A stretch of DNA of 24,417 nt, from IMG/VR virus record IMGVR_UViG_3300042449_000414, positions 1-24,417 of that record, one strand, 5' to 3'. Numbering within the stretch: the stretch's first letter is position 1; every line of letters starts with the position of its first letter. Origin of the DNA: a virus. The notes beneath the pieces are model-generated. The model saw only the letters and a list, made by a program, of their open reading frames with translations, was not told the DNA's origin and did no database searches. Positions 17,383 through 20,800 of this stretch are shown here, in pieces. The position numbers and the translations under genes are program-made.

Positions 17383-17407
17383 AAAAGGGGCTTTGCCCCT
17401 TTTTTTC
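17383..17407 (+). terminator. Strong rho-independent terminator
   Basis: AAAAGGGGC, TTT loop and GCCCCTTTT (17383-17403), followed by more T. It begins right after the TAA of the 120-residue gene. Confidence 0.95.
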
Positions 17408-17618
17408 ATATAAAGGGTGGGAGAATTGTGCCCAATTGGGTGGGATATTAAATCCTACTCATTAACCTTTTATTTATTACATAATTAACTATTAATTAGA
17501 TAGTTATGTGTGTAAAAGAATAGATGTGTAACCCTCTCAGACATATAACATGCTCTTTTCAACATCATTAAATCAATACACTAATTAATATACATATAGC
17601 TTTAAACAAAGAAAACAA
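17408..17618 (+). other. Non-coding spacer with hairpins
   Basis: No gene is visible in these 211 bases. They hold a small inverted repeat (AATTG/CAATT at about 17426-17440), a GGAT/ATCC hairpin near 17441-17454, and a perfect 7-bp hairpin, TAACTAT (17486-17492) with ATAGTTA (17500-17506). A promoter for the 55-codon gene that follows is expected here, but no consensus match is found. Confidence 0.5.
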
Positions 17619-17786
17619 ATGGAAAACATTACATTACAAGAGTGGTGTGAACTTAGATTGTTCATGATTGCTGATAATACTTATACATCTGAAGAAATTA
17701 AAGATGAACTTTGTAAATACACTATTATTGATTTAGGTGGAGGTGTGCCTATGTTGAATAGTAAATTAGAGATTGTTGGTACATAA
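17619..17786 (+). CDS. 55-residue hypothetical protein
   Basis: An ATG in the favoured GAAAACAA-ATG context opens a 55-codon frame ending in TAA and followed at once by a terminator. The protein (MENITLQEWCELRLFMIADN...) is acidic, with one helical segment and a Gly-rich turn (DLGGGVPML). No family is recognised. Flanking by its own spacer and its own terminator supports a real single-gene unit. Confidence 0.7.
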   Translation: MENITLQEWCELRLFMIADNTYTSEEIKDELCKYTIIDLGGGVPMLNSKLEIVGT

Positions 17787-17787
17787 T

Positions 17788-17815
17788 GAGCCTTTAATTA
17801 GGCTCTTTTTATTTA
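17788..17815 (+). terminator. Rho-independent terminator
   Basis: GAGCCT (17788-17793) pairs with AGGCTC (17800-17805) around a 6-base loop, with a T-rich tail. It lies two bases after the stop of the 55-codon gene. Confidence 0.85.
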
Positions 17816-17864
17816 TTCACAATTTAAAAAGCAACAGGCATGTTGTAATAATATGCAAAACAAA

Positions 17865-18104
17865 ATGAGCACAGAATTAAAAACACTCAAAGCAAAACTT
17901 GAAGTTCCTAAAAAAGATGAAAGTATGTCATCTAATTACAAAGATGTTGACGTACAATTAAATCGTTTTTGGGGTGGAGAAAAAAGAGGTTTGAGTTTAC
18001 AATTTACTTTTTTAGGAGAAGATGATAATTATCATCATTTTCAACTAGATAAAGAAAATGTACTACTTTTATTATCTGAATTAAAAGACAATTTCAATGA
18101 GTAA
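17865..18104 (+). CDS. 79-residue hypothetical protein
   Basis: The start at 17865 (MSTELKTLKAKLEVPKK) is preferred over an in-frame ATG 12 bases earlier because AACAAA-ATG is the common start context in this arm. The first 30 residues are Lys-rich and probably flexible. The rest (VDVQLNRFWGGEKRGLSLQF, then helix LDKENVLLLLSELKDNF) forms a small alpha/beta domain. No known motif is seen. Its end overlaps the next gene's ATG by 8 bases, so the two are probably co-translated. Confidence 0.75.
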   Translation: MSTELKTLKAKLEVPKKDESMSSNYKDVDVQLNRFWGGEKRGLSLQFTFLGEDDNYHHFQLDKENVLLLLSELKDNFNE

Positions 18105-18312
18105 AGAAATAGTTTATTGGAAACAACGTAATGGTGTGTTAATATCTATAGATGATATGGATGTTAACCACCTACGTAATGTTCTTAAAATGATTGTGAA
18201 GAATAGTAGCAATCGTAAAAAGAGTTTTGTTCTTAATGGTGATGCAGCTAATATGTTCAATGATGATATGCAAAATTATCAAGATGAATGTACTGAAATA
18301 GATATTTATTAA
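18097..18312 (+). CDS. 71-residue conserved-type small phage protein
   Basis: The sequence WKQRNGVLISIDDMDVNHLRNVLKMIVKN (split at residues 8-36) has the pattern ...I.I.DMD..HL.N....., seen in many small uncharacterised phage and bacterial proteins. This is family resemblance, not a known function. The tail is acidic (NYQDECTEIDIY). It is translationally coupled to the gene before it and is followed by the next ATG after 14 bases. Confidence 0.8.
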   Translation: MSKEIVYWKQRNGVLISIDDMDVNHLRNVLKMIVKNSSNRKKSFVLNGDAANMFNDDMQNYQDECTEIDIY

Positions 18313-18326
18313 ATTATACACACACA

Positions 18327-18551
18327 ATGGAGACACGTATTTTAGGTATTGTAGGGAAAACTCTATATATACAAGGATTTTATGCTGGTGATCATTTTCA
18401 TCAGCTTTATATTCCTGAACATGAATTAAATGCATTTATAGATTCTGAAATTCCTGTATATGATAATATTAATTATATACATTGTCAAACACATGGAATG
18501 ACATATGATCAATATATGGAATATTTAGAACAATATAATAAAGAGTATTAA
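18327..18551 (+). CDS. 74-residue hypothetical protein
   Basis: The start METRILGIVGKTLYIQGFYA suggests a small beta-rich fold. The remainder is rich in Tyr, His and acidic residues (FHQLYIPEHELNAFIDSEI; HCQTHGMTYDQYMEYLEQYN). No motif is recognised. The stop codon directly abuts the first structured RNA element, whose conserved 5' end begins two bases later, so the RNA may be the 3' end of this gene's transcript. Confidence 0.75.
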   Translation: METRILGIVGKTLYIQGFYAGDHFHQLYIPEHELNAFIDSEIPVYDNINYIHCQTHGMTYDQYMEYLEQYNKEY

Positions 18552-18555
18552 GTTA

Positions 18556-18690
18556 TTTCCTTTTGCACACACATCATTCTACCAAGAATGAGACAGTTGT
18601 AATGAACAAGACCAAGTTGAGGTTAACGTGACCTTGTAAAAATCGCTTGTGAGGTTTGTTACAACTGAGTGTGTAAAGGGAATTGTTGCA
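18556..18690 (+). ncRNA. Structured RNA element A (three-way junction)
   Basis: Three stems form a junction. P1: TTCCTTTT (18557-18564) with AAAGGGAA (18675-18682), continued by ACACAC (18567-18572) with GTGTGT (18669-18674) after a 2-base bulge. P2: CATTCT/AGAATG (18575-18590, ACCA loop). P3: CAGTTGTAA (18594-18602) with TTACAACTG (18659-18667), perfect over 9 bp. Inside P3, ACAAG can pair with either of two CTTGT copies. It shares its 5' end, 3' end and P3 with element B. It lacks a start codon context and coding potential. Function is unknown. Confidence 0.8.
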
Positions 18691-18766
18691 TATTACATAC
18701 ATAACTATGGAGATATGTATTGTAGGGAACACATGCTTCTTATTATAACTATCACCCAATATACAG

Positions 18767-18848
18767 TTATATAAAGTTGTAATGTGTGTAGAGAGAAGGA
18801 TATTCCCTTAGTATTCTTTTATTCATGACACATTACAGCTTTATATAA
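18767..18848 (+). promoter_or_regulatory. 21-bp hairpin upstream of the 87-residue gene
   Basis: The arms at 18767-18787 and 18828-18848 are complementary over all 21 positions with a single G-U. The 40-base loop holds a small AAGG/CCTT hairpin. The left arm also overlaps a second option, TATAACT (18744-18750) with AGTTATA (18765-18771). No U-run follows on either strand, so a terminator is unlikely. A 5'-leader element or RNase processing site for the next gene fits better. Confidence 0.8.
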
Positions 18849-18867
18849 AATTAAAAAAAACAAACAA

Positions 18868-19131
18868 ATGGAAACAATAGAAATACAAATATTAGCACAA
18901 GATGTTAATAATGCAGGAAACTTTTTAGATAGTAATAATTGTATTTTAGCTACAGCTATTAAAAGACAATTAAATGTAACAGCTGTTATTGAAGATATAT
19001 TGTATTCATATATTATTAATGTTAGATATGATCATGATGGATATGATATGAATGATTACGAAGAAGACAGGGTATTAGCAAGAGGTGTTCCTGATGATAC
19101 ATTAATTAGAACTATTTTATTAACTAAATAA
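18868..19131 (+). CDS. 87-residue hypothetical protein
   Basis: It starts in the AACAAACAA-ATG context 19 bases after the 21-bp hairpin. The protein (METIEIQILAQDVNNAGNFLDSN...) is alpha/beta-looking, with an Asp/Tyr-rich central part (RYDHDGYDMNDYEEDR) and a hydrophobic end. I recognise no family. It is followed after 4 bases by a 47-codon gene, and the two are enclosed between the two structured RNA elements. This places a hairpin, two short genes and element B in one likely transcript. Confidence 0.75.
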   Translation: METIEIQILAQDVNNAGNFLDSNNCILATAIKRQLNVTAVIEDILYSYIINVRYDHDGYDMNDYEEDRVLARGVPDDTLIRTILLTK

Positions 19132-19135
19132 ACAA

Positions 19136-19279
19136 ATGAAAAAGCACACAAAAACATTCTATCTACACTGTAAGACAGAGAGTAGATACCAATTGATTAA
19201 AGAATATTTAATGACTAAATACTCTGTATATACAGCTGTATTTGAGAATGGCTATGGTCATTTTAGAATAGTGTATTAA
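19136..19279 (+). CDS. 47-residue basic microprotein
   Basis: This 47-codon frame begins AACAA-ATG four bases after the previous stop and ends in TAA at 19279, just before the conserved start of RNA element B. The protein (MKKHTKTFYLHCKTESRYQL...) is basic and aromatic, with the pattern of a small alpha/beta unit (YLMTKYSVYTAVFENGYGHF). No family is known. Spacing and start context support translation. Confidence 0.65.
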   Translation: MKKHTKTFYLHCKTESRYQLIKEYLMTKYSVYTAVFENGYGHFRIVY

Positions 19280-19283
19280 ATGT

Positions 19284-19598
19284 TATTTCCTTTTGCACAA
19301 ATTCATTTAAGGGAAAAGGTAAGACTTCTTAGTACGATGTAGAGCAAGATAGTAGTTGCAGGCTAAGATGTGTGAAACCACCTGATTAACAATACTACTG
19401 CCTAAAGGTTGTCAGAATAGTAGGAAGGAGATAGCAGACTCTCTTAATCAGTTCCCAAGGGTGAGCAGTTGTAAAATGGAATAGCTGACCAGCTACGTGT
19501 GACAGCTCTGATATCTGACTCTTAACTGAGAGGATATTATTCAAGTGTCTATTCACGCAATAACAAGTACTGGTACAACTGAGTGCAGAGGGAATTGC
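19284..19598 (+). ncRNA. Structured RNA element B (enlarged homologue of A)
   Basis: P1 is TTCCTTTTGCAC (19287-19298) with GTGCAGAGGGAA (19583-19594): 12 bp, including two G-U pairs. P3 is CAGTTGTA (19466-19473) with TACAACTG (19574-19581). The short P2 of element A is replaced by about 165 bases including a perfect long-range helix, CTGATTAA (19382-19389) with TTAATCAG (19444-19451). Further hairpins lie inside P3 (TAGCT/AGCTA near 19482-19495; ATATC...GATAT enclosing CTCT/AGAG near 19510-19538). The region has stops in all frames and no gene. Function is unknown. Confidence 0.85.
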
Positions 19599-19632
19599 TT
19601 TAGCATAAGAGGCTATGAAACAATGCAGTTTA

Positions 19633-19651
19633 TATTTTAGCTATTAAAATA
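19633..19651 (+). other. Short perfect hairpin downstream of element B
   Basis: TATTTTA (19633-19639) pairs with TAAAATA (19645-19651) around GCTAT. No U-run follows. It may mark the 3' end of the RNA-B transcript or be part of it. Confidence 0.45.
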
Positions 19652-19677
19652 CATATAGGTGAAAGGCCTTGATTTAT

Positions 19678-19800
19678 ATGAACGTTAACCAATTAAACAA
19701 ATGCATGCGTATTAACTATTCATGGTTTTTTTTTAATCAAACGTATGTGTTTGTTTTTTTGGTTATATTTATTCACACAAACAAATTTAAATCATTATGA
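19678..19800 (+). CDS. Possible 40-residue hydrophobic microprotein
   Basis: An open frame, MNVNQLNKCMRINYSWFF then a Phe/Val/Ile-rich segment, ends with TGA overlapping the ATG of the next small gene by 4 bases. The central 15 residues could cross a membrane. The start lacks the usual A-rich context, and the hydrophobic stretch derives partly from T-runs in the DNA, so this may be chance. Confidence 0.25.
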   Translation: MNVNQLNKCMRINYSWFFFNQTYVFVFLVIFIHTNKFKSL

Positions 19801-19877
19801 AAAGATCAGCAGAATACAATATTAAATTATTTTTAGCCATGATATTGTTCATGGCTATCCTATCAGTATTAGTTTAA
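19797..19877 (+). CDS. 26-residue membrane microprotein
   Basis: MKRSAEYNIK is followed by a hydrophobic segment LFLAMILFMAILSVLV to the stop. This has the layout of a single-pass microprotein with a positively charged, cytoplasm-facing start. The leader AAATTTAAATCATT-ATG resembles that of other small genes here. It lies directly before the tRNA cluster. Similar hydrophobic microproteins occur at 20160-20273 and 21089-21193. Function is unknown. Confidence 0.5.
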   Translation: MKRSAEYNIKLFLAMILFMAILSVLV

Positions 19878-19903
19878 AACATGTTGCTGTTTGTTTTTAA
19901 TAT

Positions 19904-19989
19904 GGTGCAGTGGCGAAATGGATAGACGCAGCCCTATCAAGGGGTGGAGGTGAAAGAAACTCATACAGGTTCAAGTCCTGTCTGCACTA
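19904..19989 (+). tRNA. tRNA-Leu-like, anticodon probably CAA
   Basis: The acceptor GGTGCAG/CTGCACT has 7 pairs with a terminal G-U, and the discriminator is A, usual for Leu. The D-arm is GCG/CGC with the class-II Leu pattern, a long variable arm has a GAG/CTC stem, and the T-arm is ACAGG-TTCAAGT-CCTGT. The anticodon arm is irregular. With U33 in place the anticodon reads CAA (19938-19940), but two stem pairs fail. A slipped stem, GCCCT/GGGGT, pairs fully but leaves only a 5-base loop. No CCA is encoded. Confidence 0.75.
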
Positions 19990-19995
19990 CAAAAT

Positions 19996-20066
19996 GGCGA
20001 GTTGTTAGAGTGGTTATATGGAGCTCTGCAAAAGCTCTCACACAAGTTCGAATCTTGTACTCGCCT
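19996..20066 (+). tRNA. tRNA-Cys (GCA)
   Basis: The acceptor GGCGAGT/ACTCGCC is perfect, the anticodon stem GAGCT/AGCTC is perfect with loop CTGCAAA (anticodon GCA), the T-arm is ACAAG-TTCGAAT-CTTGT, and the discriminator is T, usual for Cys. The D-stem is weak. No CCA is encoded. It begins 6 bases after the Leu-like tRNA. Confidence 0.92.
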
Positions 20067-20069
20067 CAA

Positions 20070-20145
20070 ACTGCGAAATGGTAGAGTTGGTTTCTTACGG
20101 TGCTATCATAAGGCATAGACACAGGTTCGAATCCTGTTTGCACCA
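20070..20145 (+). tRNA. tRNA with CAT anticodon (Met or Ile2)
   Basis: The T-arm ACAGG-TTCGAAT-CCTGT is perfect. The anticodon arm GTGCT-ATCATAA-GGCAT is fully paired using two G-U. The acceptor pairs only at positions 3-7, and positions 1-72 and 2-71 are mismatched (A/C and C/C). An unpaired 1-72 recalls initiator tRNAs, but two mismatches are unusual and the GGG/CCC anticodon-stem signature of initiators is missing. It starts 3 bases after tRNA-Cys. Confidence 0.8.
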
Positions 20146-20159
20146 CTAAAAAATAAATT

Positions 20160-20273
20160 ATGAAAATTAGATTACGGACACAAAAAGAAAAGTTTTTTAT
20201 AGGAAGTGTTATCATATTAGTAATTGCTGGTTTGAGTGTAGTAGTAGCAATATTCTATTCTATATTAAAATAA
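20160..20273 (+). CDS. 37-residue membrane microprotein
   Basis: MKIRLRTQKEKFF followed by IGSVIILVIAGLSVVVAIFY: a basic start and one clear membrane segment of about 20 residues. It lies between two tRNA-type genes and begins in an AAATAAATT-ATG context. It is one of several hydrophobic microproteins in this arm. The role is unknown. Holin-like or superinfection-exclusion functions are possible but unsupported. Confidence 0.6.
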   Translation: MKIRLRTQKEKFFIGSVIILVIAGLSVVVAIFYSILK

Positions 20274-20279
20274 AAAAAT

Positions 20280-20428
20280 AGTCAGGTGGCGGAATGAAGG
20301 CACAAAGAGTAATAGTATGTGCTGGATATGGTAGACGCTAAGAAAGAAATTAACTTCGTATCTAAGTGGAAACACATGGTGGTACACTAAAGCATAATTT
20401 CATACAGGTTCGAGTCCTGTCCTGACTA
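20280..20428 (+). tRNA. Oversized tRNA-Leu-like RNA with D-loop hairpin insertion
   Basis: The acceptor AGTCAGG/CCTGACT is perfect and the discriminator is A. The T-arm ACAGG-TTCGAGT-CCTGT is perfect. D-stem GCG (20289-20291) and CGC (20336-20338) flank the Leu-type sequences GCGGAATG and GGTAGACGC, but between them lies an extra hairpin, GCACA (20300-20304) with TGTGC (20318-20322). The anticodon arm is an elongated, mismatched hairpin with TTAA at its tip, suggesting UAA. The variable region is also long. The whole is 149 bases against about 85 for a normal tRNA-Leu. Confidence 0.65.
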
Positions 20429-20444
20429 CAAATTTAAACCATTT

Positions 20445-20576
20445 TCCTGACGTTAGGAAGATGGTGACAGCTTGGAAAGACAAGCAAATTGACCAGGAAT
20501 AGATCTTTTCTTTATTAATCATTTGTTTGTGATCTATGGTGGTATCTCGTGAGTTCGAATCTCACTCTGGTCACCA
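20445..20576 (+). tRNA. tRNA-like RNA with two competing acceptor stems
   Basis: A perfect T-arm (GTGAG-TTCGAAT-CTCAC, 20549-20565) is followed by TCTGGTC, A and an encoded CCA. TCTGGTC pairs with GACCAGG (20491-20497). Alternatively GTCACC (20571-20575 region) pairs with GGTGAC (20463-20468), which precedes a D-arm-like hairpin GCTTG/CAAGC. The two stems exclude each other. Between them lies an extended hairpin, ATAGATC (20499-20505) with GATCTAT (20531-20537). A GTT anticodon (Asn) could sit at its tip in a 6-base loop, but this is uncertain. TTTCCT/AGGAAG forms another hairpin at the 5' side. Confidence 0.55.
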
Positions 20577-20596
20577 AAACAATTTAAACTTAAACT

Positions 20597-20800
20597 ATGA
20601 AATCAAAAGAGAAAATTAACAAACAAAAGAAAGACATTTGTTATTGTAATAAATGTGCATCTCCAATAGGGAGTAAACAAACAGCCTATTCAATTGAAGA
20701 ATTGTATGCTGGAGAAATTGTTAACATATTAGTTTGTAATGATTGTAACAATGAACACCAACTTCAATTGTCATGGTCTATAGATGCTCAAACAAATTAA
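20597..20800 (+). CDS. Small zinc-finger protein
   Basis: This 67-residue protein has a Lys-rich start and two cysteine pairs, CYCNKC (residues about 15-20) and CNDC (about 48-51), separated by a beta-type segment (YAGEIVNILVC). This suits a single four-Cys zinc site of the type seen in small phage regulators. No other motif is seen. It follows the tRNA-like genes by 20 bases with an ATTTAAACTTAAACT-ATG leader. Confidence 0.75.
   Translation: MKSKEKINKQKKDICYCNKCASPIGSKQTAYSIEELYAGEIVNILVCNDCNNEHQLQLSWSIDAQTN

Follow-up and report, generated by a model that had tools for sequence, protein, structure and literature searches.

Expression of the phage RNA GOLLD increases during phage lysis, and the RNA assembles into nanocages. 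In the flaviviral xrRNA, a three-way junction with a different helix order from that described below is locked by a pseudoknot between a loop and the downstream tail, and the HK022 put RNA and the Bacillus EAR element are structured RNAs of early or long operons, which act in cis on the polymerase. GOLLD is often found near tRNA genes and has a conserved 3' part and a less conserved 5' part (PMC12286853). ROOL, a phage RNA located near tRNA islands, contains pseudoknots and forms conserved intermolecular contacts; its function is not known (PMC12286853).

Here we analyze a structured RNA that is present in two copies, A and B, in a viral DNA stretch of 24,417 nucleotides (IMG/VR record IMGVR_UViG_3300042449_000414; hereafter the window). 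The initial annotation had proposed a two-copy RNA family with a common stem plan, and we found that this proposal was well founded: many more homologues exist, among which the helices P1, P2, P3 and P4 covary. Both elements indeed open with TTATTTCCTTTTGCACA immediately 3' of a stop codon and close with ACAACTGAGTG-N-GGGAATTG, as inspection of the sequence confirmed. This 3' signature, ACAACTGAGTG...GGGAATTG, occurs twice in the window, compared with 0 occurrences expected from shuffles. A covariance model, R1, in which the arms were collapsed and no window sequences were used, finds A but matches B incompletely, as the P2 loop is opened up in long copies. The features are listed below.

18557..18682, + strand: element A, short form (one arm), extended-P1 subtype; R1 match with E = 0.0012
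18557..18570, + strand: A, P1 5' strand UUCCUUUUGCACAC, 14 bp with 18669-18682
18669..18682, + strand: A, P1 3' strand GUGUGUAAAGGGAA, partner of 18557-18570
18574..18591, + strand: A, P2 hairpin UCAUUCU-ACCA-AGAAUGA, from the fold of A alone; covariation in the family is greatest in P2
18594..18602, + strand: A, P3 5' strand CAGUUGUAA, from sequence and fold
18603..18658, + strand: A, hypervariable arm 3, also present in L003 (short form) and L001 (long form)
18659..18667, + strand: A, P3 3' strand UUACAACUG, from sequence and fold
19287..19594, + strand: element B, long form (three arms), extended P1 plus UUCCC loop; R1 matches a part only, E = 0.055
19287..19298, + strand: B, P1 5' strand UUCCUUUUGCAC, 12 bp with 19583-19594
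19583..19594, + strand: B, P1 3' strand GUGCAGAGGGAA, pairs with 19287-19298
19302..19306, + strand: B, P2 5' strand UUCAU, partner GUGAG at 19461-19465 with two wobble pairs, by analogy with the family's CUCAC/GUGAG
19320..19381, + strand: B, branch of arm 1, with an inner arm sequence that is also found in L001, L064, L076 and L003
19382..19451, + strand: B, P4 CUGAUUAA (19382-19389) / UUAAUCAG (19444-19451) with arm 2 inside; covariation of P4 is seen across 40 distinct long forms
19452..19459, + strand: B, UUCCCAAG, the pseudoknot-forming segment in most family members
19466..19581, + strand: B, P3 CAGUUGUA (19466-19473) / UACAACUG (19574-19581) enclosing arm 3, which is also found in L003

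Element A alone folds exactly as the P1/P2/P3 three-way junction (-49.7 kcal/mol, z = -6.1). The fold of B is less clear (z = -1.7); P1 is kept, and reading of the sequence gives 19452-19456 as an alternative partner for the GGGAA of its P1 3' strand. In the arm 1 branch of B, the CUUCUUA...UAAGAUG part is retained, while the conserved GUGG/internal-loop part is degenerate. The pairing of the two ends, which had been recognized in both copies, is present, although it is longer than noted, with 14 bp in A and 12 bp in B. P3 had been assigned correctly in both, and the sizes of about 135 and 315 bases that had been estimated correspond to a one-arm short form and a three-arm long form. The difference in P1 between the copies had been read as compensated. 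Taken alone, the two copies are weak evidence for this, because their 5' strands are identical across 17 nt and the difference is partly one of wobble and register; it is the homologues that supply genuine covariation. Without homologues, the initial annotation could not reveal the pseudoknot, the dual pairing of the tail, the conserved internal loop found in long copies, the hypervariability of the arms or the recombination between copies.

Searching IMG/VR for exact matches to segments of the element first returned L003, in which both ends are present, and then 33 and 63 stretches; a further DNA scan matched at least 120 contigs. With a fuzzy structural grammar we detected at least 171 copies in 142 sources, a count that includes B, while the divergent A falls under the grammar threshold. 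The same grammar applied to the same 2.1 Mb read reversed gave 0 elements. That A and B are genuine paralogous members of a phage-encoded structured RNA family is in our view practically certain. A protein-coding remnant, which the initial annotation had named as one finding that would speak against an RNA, is ruled out: just 23 of 124 copies are overlapped by ORFs, and these ORFs are short and mostly antisense. The 47 viral matches to TTATTTCCTTTTGCAC were mostly chance-like, with L003 and L027 as the exceptions.

A blastn search with consensus sequences gave no match in 50,697 phage records, and the isolate Leptolyngbya phage Lbo-JY46, which has the nearest terminase, lacks the element under the structural grammar. 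In 84,980 bacterial and archaeal genomes the long-form pattern found nothing, and the 3' pattern found three contigs, one of which, L122, carries a full element in a metagenome-assembled genome binned as uncultured Neisseriaceae. This assembly also contains crAss-like terminase pieces on different contigs, so that mis-binning is likely, and the bin probably contains phage sequence.

The earlier statement that the RNA belongs to no named family was substantiated as well. At the gathering score, no Rfam 15 family matched the element in the window and 10 loci, and permissive searches gave no match up to E = 1 (L054, L064, L071) or E = 10 (window 17400-20600). The covariance models of GOLLD and ROOL remained unmatched at all these thresholds. 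Rfam likewise gave no match to known self-cleaving ribozymes or to group I and group II introns, and the copies lie between genes, not inside them. A literature search, in which the coverage of subscription papers was limited, returned no description of the element. The family is new in the sense that it is uncatalogued in Rfam 15 and in the literature searched; its broad type, a structured phage RNA, has precedents.

The core is a three-way junction of P1, P2 and P3. The short-form consensus reads UAAUGCACC(A..)-CUCAC-UUCCCAAG-GUGAG-CAGUUGUAA-(arm 3, 18-160 nt)-UUACAACUG-A-GUGCA-GAGGG, with UGCAC/GUGCA as P1, CUCAC/GUGAG as P2 and CAGUUGUAA/UUACAACUG as P3. Long copies have a P2 loop that is opened to GUGG/CCAC with the near-invariant internal loop AUAURAAGA/UGAAA and arm 1, followed by P4 with arm 2. 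Copies of this kind, such as B, carry two arms more than the short form, and the family ranges from one to three. The unpaired core bases CCCAAG and AUAURAAGA/UGAAA are nearly invariant within their respective forms, and the borders of the element are sharp, with conservation extending from TAATGCACCA to GAGGG[AG]T.

Covariation is strong in P1, P2, P3 and P4 and weaker in the pseudoknot. In 44 collapsed sequences, 98.9% of the cells are paired, compared with 31-52% for slid structures, and 93 cells show changes on both sides, compared with 20 in shuffles, a value that 0 of 500 shuffles reach; since this set was pre-filtered for paired P1 and P2, these percentages are partly given by construction. 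P2, the most covarying helix, is paired in 679 of 750 cells of 150 unfiltered copies, with many pair types. For P4, 97.5% of the cells are paired in the 40 distinct long forms, compared with 60% in shuffles. G.U cells number 148 and A.C cells 40, and GNRA loops on 5-bp stems are enriched in the sense arms (20 observed, 3.5 expected) and missing in antisense (0 observed, 1.9 expected). From the excess of G.U over A.C and the restriction of GNRA loops to one strand it follows that RNA of the + strand is the functional molecule.

The 3' tail can be paired in two ways. In most copies the UCCC of the P2 loop can form a pseudoknot with the GGGA of the tail, and this pairing is strong in 127 of 140. 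Here 96.6% of the cells are paired, AU replaces CG in two sequences, and variants that preserve pairing are seen as CAC/GUG (L081, L198) and UUCC/GGAA (L074, L095); taken alone, the covariation of the pseudoknot is modest. It gains weight because copies without the CCC loop (for example L132, L086, L115 and L220) pair the same tail through a 5' extension of P1. Such an extended P1 is found in window A, window B, L027 and about ten others, mostly without a CCC loop; A is of the extended-P1 type, and B and L027 possess both strands. Judged from the sequences, the tail GAGGG of the members is predicted to be paired either by the loop pseudoknot or by the extended P1.

The arms are extremely diverse, in contrast to the nearly constant core: grouping 268 arms by similarity yields 201 clusters, of which 155 are singletons. 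Across 29 comparisons of related arms, a predicted pair survives 11 double changes (1.5 expected), and one-sided breaks number 29 where 52 are expected. Together with the GNRA enrichment in the sense arms, this shows that the arms are folded RNA under selection, even though they are mostly unrelated to each other. A separate tally of hairpins in the arms gave 33 of the GNRA type, with 10.8 expected. Hairpins resembling the T arm of tRNA occur 6 times, with 0.6 expected, in arms of L053, L073, L081, L099 and L115; anticodon-like hairpins show no excess over chance, and neither do arm-arm base pairing and palindromic kissing loops among the arms of the family copies.

The arms have very probably been swapped between copies and between viruses. 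L027, which is the same contig as L230, has a terminase 98% identical to that of the window, and its long element has the 3' flank of B together with other arms and another upstream gene. L001 is a chimera, of which the left part resembles window B (19099-19389) and the right part window A (18573-18704), so that a crossover must have taken place inside the core. At the junction where L208 is compared with L145, L208 lacks exactly the element, and a neighbouring module and the element stand in opposite order; L076 lacks exactly one tandem copy of L064. Arms thus appear to be replaced wholesale and the left and right halves of the element to recombine. For this exchange of arms and modules we know of no precedent. 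A trivial explanation would be that assembly joined unrelated sequences at the conserved blocks, given that every contig is a metagenome assembly. We consider this hardly credible, as the conserved blocks measure just ~20-40 nt, the same arm is found with different partners in different samples, and most arms are unique.

Turning to the genomic setting, a crAss-like terminase is present in 31 of 34 host records. The nearest named relatives of the window terminase belong to Leptolyngbya phage Lbo-JY46 (39% identity), Cellulophaga phages and gut crAss-like phages. Records of ~90-130 kb contain at most 1-3 copies. The element and the terminase are divergently oriented, 3.4-31 kb apart, in every one of 24 records, which places the element in the arm opposite the structural genes, probably the early arm. 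The copies are intergenic, and 96 of 124 have the orientation of both neighbouring genes. The distances to these genes vary widely and no promoter motif is enriched, showing that the element is not tied to one gene. The motifs examined were those of sigma-A-type Bacteroidetes and sigma-70 promoters, which a phage polymerase would not use. In crAss-like phages, a virion-carried, injected RNA polymerase transcribes the early genes (PMC7886860), and this may be why sigma-type promoters are not enriched. In 13 of 149 copies (L052, L079, L082, L112, L140, L141 and others), the element is directly preceded by a hairpin that resembles a terminator and has a U run; in many cases this is the identical AAGAGCCTGTAACAGGGCTCTTTT. 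Among 20 relatives selected by their terminase, 3 match the 3' pattern, to which the copy of L027 that the pattern missed has to be added, and a looser grammar applied to the terminase-proximal regions of 14 records gave no added copies. The RNA is accessory and carried by a minority of close relatives; the exact share is uncertain because several of the records are fragments.

The surrounding non-coding DNA contains further features. At least nine other recurrent modules share the non-coding stretches of the element in varying order (for example CAAGGNTTGCAACCTTGTGAGAGTA, 39 matches); their occurrences number 92 on the strand of the element and 1 on the opposite strand. They are found at window 19597-19680 and 20464-20487 and in L001, L110, L145, L196, L208 and others. 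Some resemble small pseudoknots by eye and may be candidates for further structured RNA families. A long imperfect hairpin, TTATATAAAGTTGTAATGTGT...ACACATTACAGCTTTATATAA (window 18770-18855), lies between A and the next gene and is also present in L003. A conserved non-coding block (window 17397-17617; also in L001, L002, L027 and L142), with two GGGTGGG runs in relatives, is placed just 3' of the gene for a conserved 120-aa protein and before a region of small ORFs. ARAGORN and Rfam detected no tRNA or tmRNA in A or B, and only three tRNAs, at 19904-20145, in the window. Ordinary tRNAs are adjoined by tRNA-like genes (window 20281-20432 and 20490-20577; L071 5431-5537 and 5774-5887 (-)), which have normal acceptor and T arms and enlarged or replaced D or anticodon regions and thereby resemble arm-swapped tRNA mimics.

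What could such an RNA do? Our tentative proposal, drawn from the sequence patterns, is that it may be an accessory, co-transcribed RNA of the early arm that acts in trans, with the core as a handle and the arms as exchangeable specificity modules. The element would be transcribed together with its neighbours and then processed out, giving discrete RNAs of ~125 and ~310 nt that would begin near UUAAUGCACC or UUCCUUUUGCAC and terminate after GAGGG. The constant core would act both as a scaffold for folding and as the handle by which a phage or host protein engages the RNA, while the arms would be directed toward varying host molecules. A role in host take-over or counter-defence seems likelier than a housekeeping role, because only a minority of relatives possess the element and because it resides in the putative early arm with small unknown genes and tRNAs. 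The search for an arm target identified none. A bolder and distinctly doubtful extension sees in these stretches islands of structured RNA modules that can replace one another; the hypervariable, recombining arms presented by the constant core could then be exchangeable recognition elements against host factors. This would follow the logic of variable proteins, but built from RNA.

The strongest rival to a trans-acting RNA is action in cis on the polycistronic early transcript, be it in processing or stability, as an exonuclease block or in a put/EAR-like manner, with only the core mattering and the arms as padding. We hold this to be possible, if on the whole rather unlikely. The element is intergenic with both neighbours co-oriented in those 96 of 124 copies, shows no promoter signal of its own, and is always divergent from the terminase, and early genes of crAss-like phages are read by the injected RNA polymerase (PMC7886860); moreover, the 13 of 149 terminator-adjacent copies could hint at a transcription-linked cis role, against our trans proposal. 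However, the restriction to a minority of close relatives and the variable distance to the neighbouring gene do not fit, and the arms are under folding and loop constraints, unlike padding. A near-invariant core with free arms would also be expected of a cis element with unimportant arms or of a ribozyme. A catalytic RNA, self-cleaving or otherwise, with a constant catalytic core and free peripheral arms would indeed follow the usual ribozyme pattern, with CCCAAG and AUAURAAGA/UGAAA nearly invariant within their forms. We nevertheless judge it improbable: window A and other extended-P1 copies have no CCC loop and short forms have no second conserved loop, so that few unpaired bases are universal, and the Rfam ribozyme and intron families are unmatched.

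Catalysis, multimerization and a site acting at the DNA level are all less likely than action in cis. An RNA-only assembly like ROOL or GOLLD, in which the arms mediate multimers, is about as improbable as catalysis; the contacts of ROOL are conserved (PMC12286853), while the arms of the element are not, and neither palindromic kissing loops nor arm-arm complementarity rise above chance, despite the phage location, the tRNA genes that are sometimes nearby, the pseudoknot and the GNRA and T-loop modules within the arms. Sharp borders, the clean absence at two junctions and recombination within the core would also be seen if the element were a recombination site or mobile cassette whose palindromes fold as single-stranded DNA. 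We regard this as very unlikely, since G.U is far above A.C, GNRA loops are confined to one strand, the orientation is mostly that of the neighbouring genes, a genome carries 1-3 copies, and recombination in conserved blocks requires no dedicated site.

In summary, a structured RNA that is missing from Rfam 15 is present on well over a hundred environmental crAss-like phage contigs. What sets it apart is that, around a near-constant core, entire arms are substituted and reshuffled among copies as well as among viruses, meaning that RNA arms are swapped as modules. Should the arms confer specificity, phages of an abundant order would possess a display system that is made of RNA and evolves naturally. 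An element acting only in cis would still provide a well-defined pseudoknot core together with a natural topological equivalent, useful for structural work.

Compared with known systems, the element is nearest in setting to GOLLD and ROOL, with which it shares phages and tRNA islands; their models are unmatched and the plan differs. Like GOLLD it is a structured phage RNA that is sometimes near tRNA genes, but GOLLD is often over 800 nt long and has another core plan, and in the element all arms vary and exchange. With ROOL it has the phage setting and a pseudoknot in common, whereas the comparison of arms and loops among the copies detected no counterpart of the conserved intermolecular contacts of ROOL, and the core of the element measures ~60-110 nt. 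The likeness to the flaviviral xrRNA, a junction with a loop-tail pseudoknot, concerns only how such an RNA might work, as helix order, hosts and enzymes differ and Rfam gives no match. The same holds for HK022 put and EAR, which are also structured RNAs in early or long transcription units; the element differs in being accessory, in its exchangeable arms and in having no Rfam match to them. Group I introns and RNase P RNA likewise combine a conserved core with variable peripheral arms, but the element is intergenic, matches neither in Rfam and is built on an unrelated core.
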